Assembly (NCBI GenBank): GCA_945897555.1
Contig: CAMDGF010000015.1
Location: forward strand, 1 to 33,992
From: Klebsiella pneumoniae
GTDB taxonomy: Bacteria; Pseudomonadota; Gammaproteobacteria; Burkholderiales; UBA3065
DNA length: 33,992 nt
Direction of reading: 5' to 3'
Positions 26,687-32,214 of this stretch are shown in pieces. Each line of letters starts with the position of its first letter. Position 1 is the stretch's first letter. The translations under genes and the position numbers were made by a program. Under the pieces are notes generated by a model. The model saw nothing but the letters and a program-made list of their open reading frames with translations. It was not told the origin of the DNA and searched no databases.

Positions 26687-26708
26687 CTAGCCGCCAAAAC
26701 CTGGCTAG
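26687..26708. promoter_or_regulatory. Inverted repeat between siaC and sthA
   Basis: CTAGCC (26687-26692) and GGCTAG (26703-26708) form a perfect inverted repeat with 10 bases between, overlapping the siaC stop codon. A TAGAAT -10-like box for sthA lies within the left arm. No T-run follows, so it could be an operator or a weak processing hairpin. Confidence 0.3.
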
Positions 26709-27103
26709 CTGTGGGTATCCCCGGCGACCGCCTCGCACAACTCGAAACGCAAATGGTCAACGCGGTCTCGGAACTCCTCGCCAAGCTCGCGGATATTGAA
26801 ATCCTCGGCGTCATGCCACCAGCGCACCCGGCAGTCACGGCCCAACGCCGCCTGAGCGTCGAGCCGGACCAACAGCTTGACGAAGACCTTGGCCGACGAG
26901 CTGTTGAGATAGATCATCTGGAAATCCAGCAGGACCGGGCCCTGGCTTTCATCAAGCCATTCGTTGACCCGTCCCATCGGTCCGTCGAAGAAAGCATTCA
27001 CATCCTCCGGGAACGACTCACCGGCGATGCGTAGATGGCCCGCGTCAGGGTCGAAGGCCAGCTCAGGTGTGCGCTGCGTGGCAGGAATCAGTAGGACGCT
27101 CAT
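26705..27103 (-). CDS. siaC: SiaC-family partner-switch protein (DUF1987)
   Basis: This 132-residue protein matches SiaC (DUF1987), the target of the SiaB kinase and SiaA phosphatase that controls biofilm formation in Pseudomonas aeruginosa. MIYLNSSSAK (63-72) aligns with the phosphorylation region YLNTSS; the phosphosite corresponding to Thr68 is Ser68 here. The fold is STAS-like. The start overlaps the siaB stop as ATGA. In Pseudomonas, unphosphorylated SiaC binds and activates the diguanylate cyclase SiaD. No siaD gene is in this window, so the output partner is unknown. Confidence 0.88.
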   Translation of the reverse strand: MSVLLIPATQRTPELAFDPDAGHLRIAGESFPEDVNAFFDGPMGRVNEWLDESQGPVLLDFQMIYLNSSSAKVFVKLLVRLDAQAALGRDCRVRWWHDAEDFNIRELGEEFRDRVDHLRFELCEAVAGDTHS

Positions 27104-27693
27104 GGTCTCGGTTCAAAAAAGGCGGTGAAATTGAAGTAACTGTGCTCGCTGGTCTCGACCGGATAAAAGTCGAAGTCGAACAGACCGTTGACTTCGCGCA
27201 CGATGGTAATCCAGCCGACCCCCGCGCCACGCTCGGAATGGTCGTGATCATCAAACAGGATATCGCTCATGAGGGTGGTCAAAGCACGACGATCGAGCCC
27301 ACGCAGGCGTTCGAGTGTGTCGCGCAGCGCAGCCACCTGCGCGTTGTCGAGCAGATTCGAGCAACTCACATAGATGCTGCCTTGGGCGGTACGACCGACG
27401 CGGATGAGGCCATCGCGCAGCGCCGGTCCGCCATCGGCCGCCAAGCCGTCTGGGCACGCCTCGCTCGAATAGCGCATCACGTTCTGCACCTGTTCCACCA
27501 GCACTGCGAAGACACTGCGCACCGTCTGACCGTCGGCACCCTGCGCACTCATGCGCGTCTTGAGAACCGCGCGCAGCCCCATCAGCAACTCATCGCTGAC
27601 GGGGCCCAGATAGCTCGCGATGATCTCGCCGCTCAACATCACGTTGCGGATGCGGAATGCTTCGGCGGCGTTGACAAGCGCGTTGGGGGCCAT
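27100..27693 (-). CDS. siaB: SiaB-family protein kinase
   Basis: This 197-residue protein belongs to the SiaB kinase family, GHKL-fold kinases that phosphorylate SiaC. The N-box is VEQVQNVMRYS (Glu67, Asn71) and a glycine loop GAGVG lies at 156-160. It contains no membrane segment or sensor domain. Translation is coupled to siaC by ATGA overlap. The 127-base gap upstream separates it from the divergent PAS-phosphatase gene and should hold promoters for both. Confidence 0.86.
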   Translation of the reverse strand: MAPNALVNAAEAFRIRNVMLSGEIIASYLGPVSDELLMGLRAVLKTRMSAQGADGQTVRSVFAVLVEQVQNVMRYSSEACPDGLAADGGPALRDGLIRVGRTAQGSIYVSCSNLLDNAQVAALRDTLERLRGLDRRALTTLMSDILFDDHDHSERGAGVGWITIVREVNGLFDFDFYPVETSEHSYFNFTAFFEPRP

Positions 27694-27820
27694 GGGTCCC
27701 GACTGGATACGAACCTGCCGCGCAGTTTAACGGCTATACGGGCATTGCAGCGCAAGCCGCTGACTGACACACCGGCGATGCAGACCTTTGCCCCCTTTTC
27801 CTGCTACCGTTGCGCCTGCC

Positions 27821-29359
27821 ATGGATCCGACCCACACGCCCCGCATCGACACGCGATCGCTCTGGCAGGGGCTTTCGAGCCTGAGGCCGATATTACTGGT
27901 CCGCCGGTCCGATGGCGCCATACTCGAGGCCAACACGGTGGCCTGCGCTTTGCTCGGTCGTGATGCCCCGGCGCTGCTCGAAACCACGCTCGGCGCCTTG
28001 CATGACGAGATCGAGCTCGAACTCATCGAGCGTCGACACGATCTGGTGCAAGGCCACATCGCGAGCGCTGAACTCTGCCTTCGCCGCGCCGACGGTGCAG
28101 CGGTCTGGCTGGTGCTCGAGGCCTTCGACCACCCCCCGGTCGACGATGCACCCTGCTGCCTGCTGCTGGGCTTCGAATGCGCGGCACAGGTCGAAGCGCG
28201 GATCGAGACCGCCGGCCAGCTGCAGGCCTTGCGGCGCGGGCAGGGCATCGCCGAGTACGACCTCGATGGCAAGCTGCTGAGCGCCAACGAGATGTTCTAC
28301 GGACTGCTCAACGCCTCCGCTGAGGATCTCAAGGACGCCACCCACCAGACACTGTGCGAGCCGATTTTCGCCTGGAGCGATTACTACACCACGTGGTGGG
28401 GGCACATCCGTCGCGGCGAAGCCGATGAGGGTACGCGCCGCTACATCGACATGCTCGGCCATGAGGTCTGGCTGCGCGAGATCTTTGTGCCGATCTTTGG
28501 CCTCGACGGCCGTCCGACCCGTGTGCTGCACGCAGCGCTCGACGTCACCAAGGGCCGATCGGCCGAACTGCGCATGCTCGAGAGCATGAGTTACGCGAGC
28601 CGCATCCAGCATGCGATGCACGACCCCTCGCGTGAGATGCTATCCGGCTTCATGACCGACCACCACAGTCTGGTATGGCAGCCGCGCGAACCTGTGGGTG
28701 GCGACTGCTTCTTTGCCAGGATGGTGGGCGATGACCTCTGGCTGTGCCTGTTCGACTGCACCGGCCACGGCGCACCTGGGGCGATGCTTGCCACCATCGT
28801 GCTGTCGCTGGTCGACCGCATCTTCAGCACGGACGACGGCGAGATGTTGCCTGGTGATGTCCTTGAGCGCCTGAACCGTCGGATGAAGGTGGTGCTCGAT
28901 CAGGAGCAACAGCGCCCTGACATCGACAGCGGCAGCGACGACGGTGTGGACGGCGTGGTGATATGCCTCAAGCCCAAGTCGGAACTGGCACTCTTTGCCA
29001 GCTCTGGCCTGCCCGTGTTCGTCCTGCCGCCCGCCGGCGATCCGGTGGTGCAGCGCTGGGCTGGCGGCGGACTGGGCTACCGCTTGATCGAAGCCAACCG
29101 GCAGTGGCCCACGCGCGAGATGCACTGCCCTGCACAGACGCGCTTGTTCGTGGCGACCGATGGCATCTTTGATCAGATCGGCGGCCCCCGTGGCATGGGC
29201 TACAGCGCGACGCGCTTCTTGCAGAGCTTGCAAAGTCACGCGCATCTGCCCATCGCGCTGCAAGGCGACGCCGCTTTCCGCGACTTCGCCGCCTATCAGG
29301 GCACCCAGCAGCGTCGTGACGATCTGGCCTACATCGGGCTGCAGATGCCCGCTACCTGA
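27821..29359 (+). CDS. PAS-PAS-PP2C (SpoIIE-type) serine/threonine phosphatase, SiaA-like
   Basis: This 512-residue soluble protein has two PAS-like domains (about 20-120 and 135-248) and a SpoIIE-type PP2C phosphatase domain (about 280-508). Metal-binding acidic residues are Asp295 in VGGDCFF, Asp312 in DCTGHGAPGAM, Asp447 in ATDGIFD and Asp500/Asp501 in RRDD. The family removes phosphate from partner-switch proteins, so the likely target is the nearby SiaC. It differs from the Pseudomonas SiaA, which is a membrane protein with a HAMP domain; here the sensor part is cytosolic. ATG at 27821 is chosen; a TTG at 27788 would add 11 residues. No clear ribosome-binding site is seen. Confidence 0.9.
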   Translation: MDPTHTPRIDTRSLWQGLSSLRPILLVRRSDGAILEANTVACALLGRDAPALLETTLGALHDEIELELIERRHDLVQGHIASAELCLRRADGAAVWLVLEAFDHPPVDDAPCCLLLGFECAAQVEARIETAGQLQALRRGQGIAEYDLDGKLLSANEMFYGLLNASAEDLKDATHQTLCEPIFAWSDYYTTWWGHIRRGEADEGTRRYIDMLGHEVWLREIFVPIFGLDGRPTRVLHAALDVTKGRSAELRMLESMSYASRIQHAMHDPSREMLSGFMTDHHSLVWQPREPVGGDCFFARMVGDDLWLCLFDCTGHGAPGAMLATIVLSLVDRIFSTDDGEMLPGDVLERLNRRMKVVLDQEQQRPDIDSGSDDGVDGVVICLKPKSELALFASSGLPVFVLPPAGDPVVQRWAGGGLGYRLIEANRQWPTREMHCPAQTRLFVATDGIFDQIGGPRGMGYSATRFLQSLQSHAHLPIALQGDAAFRDFAAYQGTQQRRDDLAYIGLQMPAT

Positions 29360-29367
29360 GGCTTCGC

Positions 29368-29736
29368 ATGTCCAAGACCATCCTGGTTGTCGACGATTCC
29401 CGCAGCATCCGCGAGATGGTGGCGAGTTTCCTCACGTCCGCAGGCTACGAGGTGCTCACCGCGGACAGCGGCGCCAGCGCCTCACAACTGCTCGACGGCC
29501 GCAAGATCAACCTGGTGGTCTGCGACGTTGAGATGCCCGAGATGGATGGCATCGAGTTTGTCTCGCGCATGAAGCAGCTGGCGGCTTATCGGATCACGCC
29601 GGTCATCATGCTCACCACCATGTGGACCGATGAACGCAAGCTACAGGGGCGCAACGCAGGCGCCAAAGCTTGGTTCGTGAAGCCCTTCGATCCCGACAAG
29701 ATGCTCGCCGCGGTGACCCGCTTCATCCTGCCCTGA
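29368..29736 (+). CDS. CheY-like single-domain response regulator
   Basis: This 122-residue receiver domain has the acidic pair Asp9/Asp10, the phosphoacceptor Asp53 in VVCDVEMPEMDG, Thr82/Thr83 and Lys104 in FVKPF. It contains no output domain. It follows the PAS-phosphatase stop by eight bases with GAGG upstream, so the two are co-translated. It could feed a two-component signal into the Sia-like pathway or link it to motility; no cognate histidine kinase is in the window. Confidence 0.93.
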   Translation: MSKTILVVDDSRSIREMVASFLTSAGYEVLTADSGASASQLLDGRKINLVVCDVEMPEMDGIEFVSRMKQLAAYRITPVIMLTTMWTDERKLQGRNAGAKAWFVKPFDPDKMLAAVTRFILP

Positions 29737-29779: not shown

Positions 29780-30430
29780 TCAGTGGAGTGGCTCGTTGCC
29801 GGACAGGTCGACGCCGAGGGGCGAACGCAAGGAAGCCAGCACCGCGCGGCAGAGGTCAACGTGCGCGTCGTCGAGCCCGCCAACGCCACCCGACTCGATC
29901 ACCGACTCGATCAGCAAGCCCGCCATCTCGTTGCGCTGCCGTGCCCCGGCAAGGGCGTTGCGCAACTCGACGATCAGATTGTCGCGTGCGTCGAGCTCCC
30001 GCAAAAGTGGGTCCCAGTGCTGCGAGCGGTGCCGCTGCAACAGGCTCTCCACAGCCGCCGGGTTGGCGCTGAGGAACTCCGGATTGAAATCGTCGAGCAC
30101 AAAATCCTCGAGCTCCGGCACGTCTTTGAGCATCTCCTCGCTGAGCCGCTGGAAGCCCATGGTCCAGCCGCCGTAGAAGCGCCGGGTGATGTTTTCGCGC
30201 CGCAGCACCCGGAAGTTCTTGTGGCGCGGGTCTTTCTCGATCTTGGCCAAAAGGCCGTCTACGGCGGCCGCCTCACCCTCGATGGTCTGGAGGAATGAGC
30301 CGTTGCCGTGGATCAGCAGGCCCGTGAGCCCGAGTTCCGGGTTCTTGATGTGGCAGTGGCGAAGCAGTTGAAGCAGCATCGAAGGCGTCCAGGGCGTGCT
30401 CTCCTGGCTGAGGTAGGTAACGCGGATCAT
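29780..30430 (-). CDS. BLUF-domain blue-light photoreceptor
   Basis: This 216-residue protein begins with a full BLUF domain, which binds FAD and senses blue light. Key residues are Tyr6 in VTYLS, Asn30 in IKNPELGLTG, Gln48 in FLQTIEGE, and Trp89/Met91 in GGWTMGF. Residues 94-216 form a helical extension with no domain I can name, probably the output or partner-binding part. A perfect AAGGAGGT lies a few bases upstream of the ATG at 30430. It follows yceI by 37 bases on the same strand. Confidence 0.93.
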   Translation of the reverse strand: MIRVTYLSQESTPWTPSMLLQLLRHCHIKNPELGLTGLLIHGNGSFLQTIEGEAAAVDGLLAKIEKDPRHKNFRVLRRENITRRFYGGWTMGFQRLSEEMLKDVPELEDFVLDDFNPEFLSANPAAVESLLQRHRSQHWDPLLRELDARDNLIVELRNALAGARQRNEMAGLLIESVIESGGVGGLDDAHVDLCRAVLASLRSPLGVDLSGNEPLH

Positions 30431-30467: not shown

Positions 30468-31031
30468 TCAGTCCTTGAAAGCCTCAACCGGAATCTTGAT
30501 CGTCACCTCGTCGGCGATGGCGGGCAAGTACTTCTTCATGCCCCACTCAGACCGCTTGATGGTGGTGCTGATGTCGGCCGCACAGAGGGCTTTCTTGTTG
30601 ATCGGATGAGTACCACAGGTAAAGCCGGAGATGGTCAGGGCCACAGGCCGCGACACCCCCAGCAGGGTGAGGGTGCCCTCGGCGGCAACCGGCTTGTCGC
30701 CGTCAAAACTCATGCGGCTGGCAGAGAAAGTCATGGTCGGGAATTGCGCAGCATTGAAGAAATCCTCGCCCCGCATGTGCTTGTCCCAGTCGTCGAGGCC
30801 CATGTCGATGGAAGCACTGTCGATGCGGACCTCAACGCTACCGCTTTTGGCAGAACGATCGAGGGTGATCTTGCCTTCGGTCTTGTTGAAGCGACCACGC
30901 TGCGTCGAAAAACCGAGGTGGTTGATCTCGAACACCGGGAAGGTGTGACGCGAGTCCACCGTGAAGGATTCGGACGCCTGTAGCGGCGCGCTGATGGCCA
31001 GGGTGATGATCGCAGCAACGAGTGGCTTCAT
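30468..31031 (-). CDS. YceI-family periplasmic protein (first)
   Basis: This 187-residue protein has a signal peptide (about 1-19, cleaved near LQAS) and a YceI lipocalin-like fold: FTVDSRHTFPVFEINHLGF, then VRIDSASIDMG and MTFSASRMSF. YceI proteins bind isoprenoid-type lipids such as polyprenyl chains or quinone-like molecules. Two cysteines (GFTCG and ALCAADIS) could form a disulfide. It lies between a second YceI gene and the BLUF gene. Confidence 0.93.
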   Translation of the reverse strand: MKPLVAAIITLAISAPLQASESFTVDSRHTFPVFEINHLGFSTQRGRFNKTEGKITLDRSAKSGSVEVRIDSASIDMGLDDWDKHMRGEDFFNAAQFPTMTFSASRMSFDGDKPVAAEGTLTLLGVSRPVALTISGFTCGTHPINKKALCAADISTTIKRSEWGMKKYLPAIADEVTIKIPVEAFKD

Positions 31032-31096
31032 GGGATTTCCTGAAATAGGCAATGGTGGGAGTGTGGGGCCTAAAGGTGGCCGCTGGCTGAATCGGC

Positions 31097-31675
31097 TCAG
31101 GTCTTTTTGCTGGCAGCGACCAGACGGAACTTGATCTGCACCTCGTTGGCAACGGTATCGAAATCGGCCCACACACCCTGCCCGATGCCGAAATCGGCGC
31201 GCCGGATGGTGATGGCCCCCTCGAATAGGGTGTTGGCACCTTGTTGCGTGATGATGACCGGCGCCACCACATCGCGGACTTTGTCGCGGATCGTAAGTTT
31301 GCCGGCCACCTCCAGACGGTTGCCGCTGAGCGCCTTGACGCTGCTCGAGACAAAGGTGGCTTTGGGAAACTGCTTGACGTGGAACCAGTTCTTGCTGGTG
31401 ACTTCCTCGTTGGTCTCGGCGGCACCGGCATCCACGCTGGCCATATCGATCTCGATCTGGGCGCGCCCGGCGTCTGGTTTGGCCGGATCGAAGCTCATGT
31501 TCACCGCGAACCGGCGGAACTCGCCTTCGACGGCGACGCCCATCTGCCGCGAAACGAAGGTGAGGCGGCTCTTGTCGGGCAGGATCGGGCCGAGTTCGGC
31601 GGCGGCCGCCGGGCCACCACTGGCGAGGCTGGCCACGAGGCCACAAACAACGAGGAGGAAGCCGTTCCGGATCAT
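31097..31675 (-). CDS. YceI-family periplasmic protein (second)
   Basis: This 192-residue protein has a signal peptide (about 1-26, ending PAAAA) and the YceI pattern: DKSRLTFVSRQMGVAVEGEF, ARAQIEIDMASVDAG-like strand and NWFHVKQFPKATFVSSSV. It has no cysteine pair, unlike its neighbour. ATG at 31675 overlaps the cytochrome b561 stop as ATGA, a common partner arrangement. It is 65 bases from the next yceI gene. Confidence 0.92.
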   Translation of the reverse strand: MIRNGFLLVVCGLVASLASGGPAAAAELGPILPDKSRLTFVSRQMGVAVEGEFRRFAVNMSFDPAKPDAGRAQIEIDMASVDAGAAETNEEVTSKNWFHVKQFPKATFVSSSVKALSGNRLEVAGKLTIRDKVRDVVAPVIITQQGANTLFEGAITIRRADFGIGQGVWADFDTVANEVQIKFRLVAASKKT

Positions 31676-32214
31676 GATCTGGCCTTGCGCTCGAGGAAGG
31701 GGAGCATGCGCGCCAGAACCCCGTCTGACCCGTGCAGATGGTGGCGCACGGCGGCAGCAACATGCACGGCAACGAGGGTGGCGAGGGTCAGGTTGAGCGC
31801 CTGGTGCAGGGCCGCCAGAGCCTCCCCTAGCGCTTTGTCCTTGGCCACGAGATCGGGCAGCGGCAAGACGCCGAACCACACCGTCTGAAAGCCCTTGGCC
31901 GAACTCATAAGCCAGCCGGACAGAGGGATGGCAAGCAGCAGAACGTAGAGCGAGCGGTGTGTCCATGCCGCTGTCTCGCGCTGCCAAGCCGGCAATGCGG
32001 CCGGCAGCGGAGGGGCCGGGTGCGTGATACGCCAGCCCAAGCGGATCAGCACCAAGGCAAAGAGGGTCACGCCTGCCCACTTATGATACGAGTAGAGCTT
32101 GAGCTTGGCCGGGGAGATCGGCAGGTCCTGCATGTAGAGCCCGACCGCAAAAGACCCGAAGAGGCCTAACGCGACCAGCCAATGCAGGGCGATGGCGGTG
32201 CGGGTGTAACGCAT
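31672..32214 (-). CDS. Cytochrome b561 family protein
   Basis: This 180-residue integral membrane protein has four helices and the four haem-ligand histidines expected of the bacterial b561 family: His11 (ALHWL), His44 (YSYHKWAG), His137 (LHQAL) and His151 (AVHVAAA). Such proteins pass electrons from quinol, possibly to periplasmic acceptors or superoxide. It is the first gene of the b561-yceI-yceI-BLUF operon. ATG at 32214 is chosen; an ATG 21 bases upstream is the alternative. Confidence 0.92.
   Translation of the reverse strand: MRYTRTAIALHWLVALGLFGSFAVGLYMQDLPISPAKLKLYSYHKWAGVTLFALVLIRLGWRITHPAPPLPAALPAWQRETAAWTHRSLYVLLLAIPLSGWLMSSAKGFQTVWFGVLPLPDLVAKDKALGEALAALHQALNLTLATLVAVHVAAAVRHHLHGSDGVLARMLPFLERKARS

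Follow-up and report, generated by a model that had tools for sequence, protein, structure and literature searches.

We analyse a 33,992-nucleotide stretch of DNA (contig CAMDGF010000015.1; "the window" means this whole stretch) from the draft genome of a freshwater bacterium (G000; 52 contigs, 1.81 Mb, 98.5% complete), and in it a group of four genes that makes up a Sia-type partner switch of a new form. The reference system for such switches is SiaABCD of Pseudomonas aeruginosa (PMC7647112, PMC8457831), and HptB-HsbR-HsbA-HsbD of the same species serves as a second (PMC5085249, PMC6482189). The genome is compared with four congeners (G001 to G004, 79-94% complete).

On the minus strand lie siaC (DUF1987; 26705-27103), encoding the partner-switch phosphoprotein (PF09345, 1e-30; SiaC structures 6kko/6kkp, 2.5e-18), and siaB (DUF6272; 27100-27693), encoding the SiaC kinase with its GHKL-like motifs (PF19788, 2e-26; SiaB chain of 6kko, 2e-7). 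The two frames overlap by 4 nt (ATGA), and sthA directly follows siaC downstream. On the plus strand a gene for a soluble PAS-PAS-PP2C phosphatase of the SiaA type (512 residues; 27821-29359; SpoIIE 1e-17, PAS; SiaA-PP2C structure 6k4e, 1.3e-31) is followed after 8 nt by a separate gene for a single-domain CheY-like receiver (122 residues; 29368-29736; PF00072, 2e-27). The longest open reading frame (ORF) of the phosphatase starts from TTG at 27788, and the ATG at 27821 is the more likely start. Both promoters presumably lie in the 127-bp region between the divergent units (27694-27820); a scan for promoters and terminators gave nothing, with no match to a sigma-70-type consensus. This layout, with siaB and siaC divergent from the phosphatase gene and the receiver next to it, is that of the original prediction, and coordinates, domain scans, structure matches and fold agree on it.

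The nearest solved relatives of the SiaA-type PP2C domain, SiaB and SiaC are the three P. aeruginosa Sia proteins, and membership in these families is well beyond chance; family profiles, catalytic motifs and the 6k4e match all bear out the predicted assignment to a Sia-type switch with a SiaA-type phosphatase. SiaB passes the NCBIfam model for SiaB-family kinases (NF038262, 116 against a cut-off of 85 bits). All three proteins are too distant for the NCBIfam equivalog cut-offs, at 52 against 225 bits for SiaB, 82 against 150 for SiaC and 127 against 700 for the phosphatase as SiaA. By inspection, the E and QN motifs of SiaB are present (E67, Q70 and N71 are invariant), the phosphatase has GGD, DCTGHG, TDGIFDQIGG and RRDD, and the receiver is intact in its DD, D, T and K residues. 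The TDGxxDQxGG signature is common to 58 of 81 PP2C ORFs from the loci compared below, most of them siaBC loci. An AlphaFold model of the phosphatase comprises a pair of PAS domains, a long helix (242-276) and a PP2C domain; for the last of these, the best match in the PDB is again 6k4e (TM 0.89 on target). No transmembrane or hydrophobic segment is predicted in the phosphatase. No relative of the phosphatase was found in viral contigs.

Set beside SiaABCD, the window thus keeps SiaB, SiaC and a SiaA-type PP2C, all with their catalytic residues, and has Ser68 in SiaC for Thr68. Whereas siaA-siaB-siaC-siaD form a single operon and SiaA is membrane-bound, the phosphatase here is soluble, carries two PAS domains, is divergent from siaBC and is followed by a receiver.

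Docking stalks behind siaC

What SiaC acts on in other lineages may be read from the gene that follows it. Searching genome contigs with an alignment of SiaC gave at least 584 relatives, of which we compare the best 80 loci; the pattern used is biased towards SiaC proteins resembling that of the window, so that ratios taken from these loci describe this neighbourhood and not the whole family. In 73 of the 80, the gene after siaC starts with a segment carrying the SiaC-docking motif familiar from SiaD, [R/K]-hydrophobic-S-D-R-x-[E/Q]. The rest of these stalk proteins is a class III cyclase (30), a GGDEF domain (23), an HD-GYP domain (9), a histidine kinase (8) or truncated or other (3), and such fusions occur directly after siaC in many Proteobacteria (for example L115 8387-9445, L134 8401-9441, L172 8384-10447 and L127 4242-5297). 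Because the motif is shared, we infer that SiaC docks on all four kinds of enzyme. PMC8457831 was the one paper mentioning DUF1987 in the literature searched, and its authors suggested, in general terms only, that DUF1987 proteins modulate adjacent proteins; in the same literature we found no description of SiaC with adenylate cyclases or of stalk fusions, a limited search that is no proof of novelty.

Three of the seven loci without a stalk after siaC belong to the window's genus. Two stalk models were run against its genomes. The first (A4) gives 1e-15 to 1e-25 in its positive controls (G040, G084, G096) and is insensitive to SiaD of the P. aeruginosa type, a RISDRxQ-motif stalk joined to GGDEF (in G070 and G099 it gives 0.02 or no match). 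The second (A7), built after A4 had proved insensitive, uses the motif only and includes P. aeruginosa-type SiaD; it recovers the SiaD genes known from G030, G070 and G099 (1.7e-13, 8e-13 and 2.5e-12). With these controls positive, neither model finds a docking-stalk protein of any kind in G000 to G004, and thus no counterpart of SiaD. G000 does encode five GGDEF matches, all on contigs other than the window's, and five class III cyclases. Direct inspection of these proteins shows no stalk: they are PAS-, GAF-, REC-, EAL- or membrane-linked, lack the motif, and align to the Limnohabitans cyclase introduced below in the catalytic part only, at up to 36% identity. We therefore reject the idea that any of these cyclases is a relocated orthologue of the Limnohabitans effector and, as far as the drafts allow, that of a distant SiaD. 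From this pattern it is highly probable that the genus has no stalked effector. Outside the genus, A4 and A7 also detect no stalk in G024, G063 and G064, which belong to other families; in G024 and G064 an HD-GYP gene without a stalk stands beside siaBC. In L039 and L043 the HD-GYP gene that lacks the stalk adjoins siaBC and CBS-PP2C. In L042 (G096) the frames of SiaB and SiaC on the two sides of the phosphatase gene seem to have been split or duplicated.

The tree of joined SiaB and SiaC places this absence in a context. The genus forms a clade (support 1.0) that is sister to loci of Limnohabitans and other Comamonadaceae (support 0.999), and window-type SiaBC sits on a long branch (0.71). 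The sister operons read siaB, siaC, stalked class III cyclase, CBS-PP2C (L134, L137, L139, L143, L153, L173). In G000 the genes for SiaC, for SiaB and for SpoIIE-type phosphatases number exactly two each and are arranged in two modules; the second module, on contig 3 and without siaD, reads siaB-siaC-CBS-PP2C. Here the CBS-PP2C protein is about 50% identical to the Limnohabitans type and its gene directly follows siaC, the cyclase between them being gone, as it is throughout the genus. The simplest reading of these arrangements is that the cyclase effector was lost in this genus. The window's phosphatase is not a copy of the sister lineage's CBS-PP2C, and the tree does not support it as a duplicate of the CBS-PP2C.

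Residues of the window's SiaC can be compared with those of SiaC proteins that do have a stalk partner. The phospho-acceptor is Ser68 (in LNSSS), which takes the position of P. aeruginosa Thr68 in an ungapped alignment and is present in 78 of 78 stalk-associated SiaC proteins compared; N67 and Y65 are present as well. Two positions that contact SiaD are changed, D114R and M75V, where stalk-associated SiaC has D or E at 114 in 77 of 78 and M at 75 in 71 of 78. These changes fit an altered partner and are no proof of one.

The original prediction was thus right that no SiaD lies nearby, and what it named as refuting, close relatives that have siaD within this operon, does not occur among the congeners. 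It had taken a GGDEF-type SiaD as the natural output, a view that does not hold for a lineage in whose sister SiaBC loci that place is taken by a class III nucleotide cyclase. It had also left a choice between a distant cyclase and a different partner; the first is disfavoured, as no stalk protein was found genome-wide, and the second is favoured.

The phosphatase and its receiver

Further PAS-PAS-PP2C genes are found in the congeners (L033 in G002, L065 and L066 in G001, L067 in G004), 46-57% identical overall. L065 runs into the end of its contig; in all three of the loci whose contig extends far enough, a receiver comes after the phosphatase. It is the same receiver, directly following, in L033 and L067. 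In L066 one short gene intervenes, and the receiver leads into genes for STAS, CheA, CheW, CheR and CheB proteins, with PAS-PAS-PP2C at the head of the che cluster. The neighbours on the other side are less constant: siaBC adjoins PAS-PAS-PP2C only in the window and L033, and the flanks vary. Since the receiver is kept while siaBC adjacency and flanks change, the phosphatase-receiver pair appears as the conserved unit and siaBC as a second one. The back-to-back arrangement of siaBC and phosphatase recurs in G002 and, with a REC-PAS-PP2C protein, in L172. In L104 (11167-11463 and 11852-12229), and likewise in L066, the che cluster encodes a STAS-domain protein between CheY and CheA and a short unassigned protein ahead of CheY; a second partner switch, acting on che operons of this type, is possible.

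The gene content of G004 bears on whether the phosphatase serves SiaC. Its siaBC locus is without the CBS-PP2C gene kept there in congeners, and the PAS-PAS-PP2C protein is the sole phosphatase of the SiaA type in this genome, which suggests, as far as sequence can tell, that this phosphatase would serve SiaC even when unlinked. G004 does not have a single PP2C protein of any type: a REC-PP2C of the RsbU type is also present, and the single-phosphatase argument therefore holds for SiaA-type phosphatases only.

Physical fusion of the two parts occurs elsewhere. In 4 of the 80 loci the phosphatase is fused to a receiver. Three Magnetococcales loci that also carry CheA, CheW and MCP (methyl-accepting chemotaxis protein) genes have REC-PP2C with siaBC (L140), REC-PP2C-SiaB (L144) and REC-PAS-PP2C divergent from siaBC (L172), and REC-PP2C is found in L178 and L035 too. 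Because REC-PP2C, REC-PAS-PP2C and REC-PP2C-SiaB occur together with siaBC, a receiver-controlled SiaA-type phosphatase is credible by analogy, and this is the best support for the receiver acting on the phosphatase. The Magnetococcales clusters thus resemble the window in combining receiver, SiaA-type phosphatase and SiaBC, and L172 shares the PAS domain and the divergent layout as well; they differ in the fusion of the receiver, in the che genes within the cluster, and in the stalked HD-GYP protein that follows siaC in L144 and L172. The receiver-PP2C-SiaB protein of L144 (5841-7727), from a Magnetococcales metagenome-assembled genome, is one ORF ahead of siaC and the stalked HD-GYP gene, and could be a true fusion or the result of a lost stop codon.

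A partial parallel is HptB-HsbR-HsbA-HsbD, where a two-component signal likewise governs a PP2C phosphatase and, through it, the dephosphorylation of a STAS-like partner, whereas HsbA is a STAS protein and not a DUF1987 protein and HsbD is a membrane cyclase. In HsbR the receiver and the phosphatase are one protein; in the window they are two genes 8 nt apart.

The coupling of receiver to phosphatase that had been predicted is therefore upheld by the linkage in congeners and by the fused forms in other lineages. The contrast drawn with Pseudomonas survives in part: the added receiver and the missing SiaD set the window apart, and the two other marks do not. Most phosphatases of the 80 loci have membrane segments, but 13 scored soluble (a few of these truncated or congeneric), and divergent layouts are common, many of them alphaproteobacterial (Ruegeria L115-L119, Stappia L122) and others in Granulosicoccus (L156, L165).

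A proposed mechanism and its alternatives

Gene content, family membership, phosphatase-receiver linkage, lack of detectable stalk proteins and the sister relation to cyclase-type SiaBC are directly established. On these we build a reading to which we give an even chance: that the window encodes a SiaABC-type switch that has lost its original effector and in which two-component signalling has come to control the phosphatase arm. In it, SiaB would phosphorylate SiaC on Ser68 and the PAS-PAS-PP2C protein would take the phosphate off again; that this phosphatase acts on SiaC is very likely. The PAS domains and the CheY-like receiver, phosphorylated or not, would set phosphatase activity, and action of the receiver on the phosphatase is a reasonably good prospect. 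The receiver's own input might come from one of G000's four CheA-type chemosensory clusters (which together contain twelve CheW-domain matches), though for input from a CheA we would put the chance slightly short of even. Unphosphorylated SiaC would then bind a target other than a SiaD-type or other docking-stalk enzyme, and we infer from the sequences that such a target exists. The module would descend from a siaB-siaC-cyclase-phosphatase operon from which the stalked class III cyclase was lost in the genus.

Several observations weigh against this reading. The assemblies of G000 and of its congeners are incomplete drafts (98.5% and 79-94%). Apart from D114 and M75, the P. aeruginosa-type contact residues are mostly retained in the window's SiaC, as expected if a stalk-like partner had persisted, although SiaB and SiaA, too, engage this face of SiaC. 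Other receivers of G000 might be the relevant ones, and the REC fusions occur in distant lineages. Finally, since G004 and G001 bear PAS-PAS-PP2C units with no siaBC beside them, the phosphatase may have the STAS protein of the CheY-STAS-CheA cluster (L066, L104) as an additional or even as its actual substrate.

The first two of these points lead to a conventional SiaABCD-like pathway whose stalked effector, a class III cyclase or a GGDEF protein, lies elsewhere and was missed, either in sequence that was not assembled or with a stalk too diverged to be recognised. The five GGDEF proteins and the five class III cyclases of G000 would be at hand, and the contact residues, mostly kept in the window, are fully retained in the SiaC of the second module. 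Two stalk models that are positive at the right places in six control genomes are nevertheless blank in all five genomes of the genus, and the enzymes at hand lack the motif and resemble the sister lineage's cyclase in their catalytic part alone; we regard a missed effector as unlikely.

Lower still we place the possibility that the chemosensory apparatus is itself the output, with SiaC binding a chemoreceptor, CheA or a receiver and so tuning the array. Che genes do gather around these modules: in G002 (L033) genes for an MCP and a CheY and then the beginning of a CheA gene come 80 nt after siaB-siaC, an MCP gene lies upstream of the second siaBC in G000, and PAS-PAS-PP2C heads a che cluster in G001. 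But congeners do not share the MCP beside the second module, which rules it out as a fixed partner, the Magnetococcales che genes look like input given that a stalked HD-GYP effector follows siaC there, and no binding site is known. Equally improbable is that two units stand back to back by chance, siaBC on one side and on the other a PAS-PAS-PP2C/CheY pair acting on the STAS protein of a che cluster: the unlinked phosphatases of G004 and G001 and the G001 paralogue heading a cluster with CheY, STAS protein and CheA speak for it, whereas the SiaA-like profile, sequence and fold of the phosphatase domain with its DQxGG loop, the pairing of each siaBC copy in G000 with one SpoIIE-type phosphatase and no others in the genome, and the recurrence of the layout in G002 and L172 speak against it.

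Neighbouring genes and wider meaning

The next gene after the receiver, not mentioned in the original prediction, encodes a BLUF photoreceptor (29780-30430, minus strand; PF04940, 7e-25) and is convergent with it. In G002 a BLUF protein 82% identical to it is encoded in the same neighbourhood (L033 7055-7654), and, judged by eye, the flavin pocket seems to have kept its tyrosine, glutamine and tryptophan/methionine positions. Binding of BLUF proteins to CheY-like proteins is known from other systems (PixD-PixE). The gene is a neighbour and an unproven candidate member of the module. Downstream of it, two YceI-type genes and a cytochrome b561 gene lie in a row (30468-32214, minus strand). On contig 3 of G000 a PucC-family gene (L105 2183-3577; PF03209, 6e-148) stands beside a che cluster, a hint of phototrophy in the genus.

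The known role of SiaC is that of activator of one diguanylate cyclase. Taken together, our comparisons tentatively suggest a wider role, on a joint reading that we think somewhat less likely to be right than wrong: SiaC would be a general plug-in activator that works through one stalk on GGDEF proteins, class III cyclases, HD-GYP proteins and histidine kinases, and the SiaBC of this genus, shed of stalk enzymes and tied to CheY and chemosensory genes, would control a new target, possibly the chemosensory array. Four kinds of signalling enzyme encoded directly behind siaC begin, as found here, with an experimentally mapped docking motif; testable predictions follow from this, and in our view this one stalk with four kinds of output is a more useful outcome than the window's module. 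The module itself is a natural experiment in which kinase, phosphoprotein and phosphatase are kept, the effector class is gone and a receiver is added, and identifying the partner of its SiaC would show how partner switches change their outputs.

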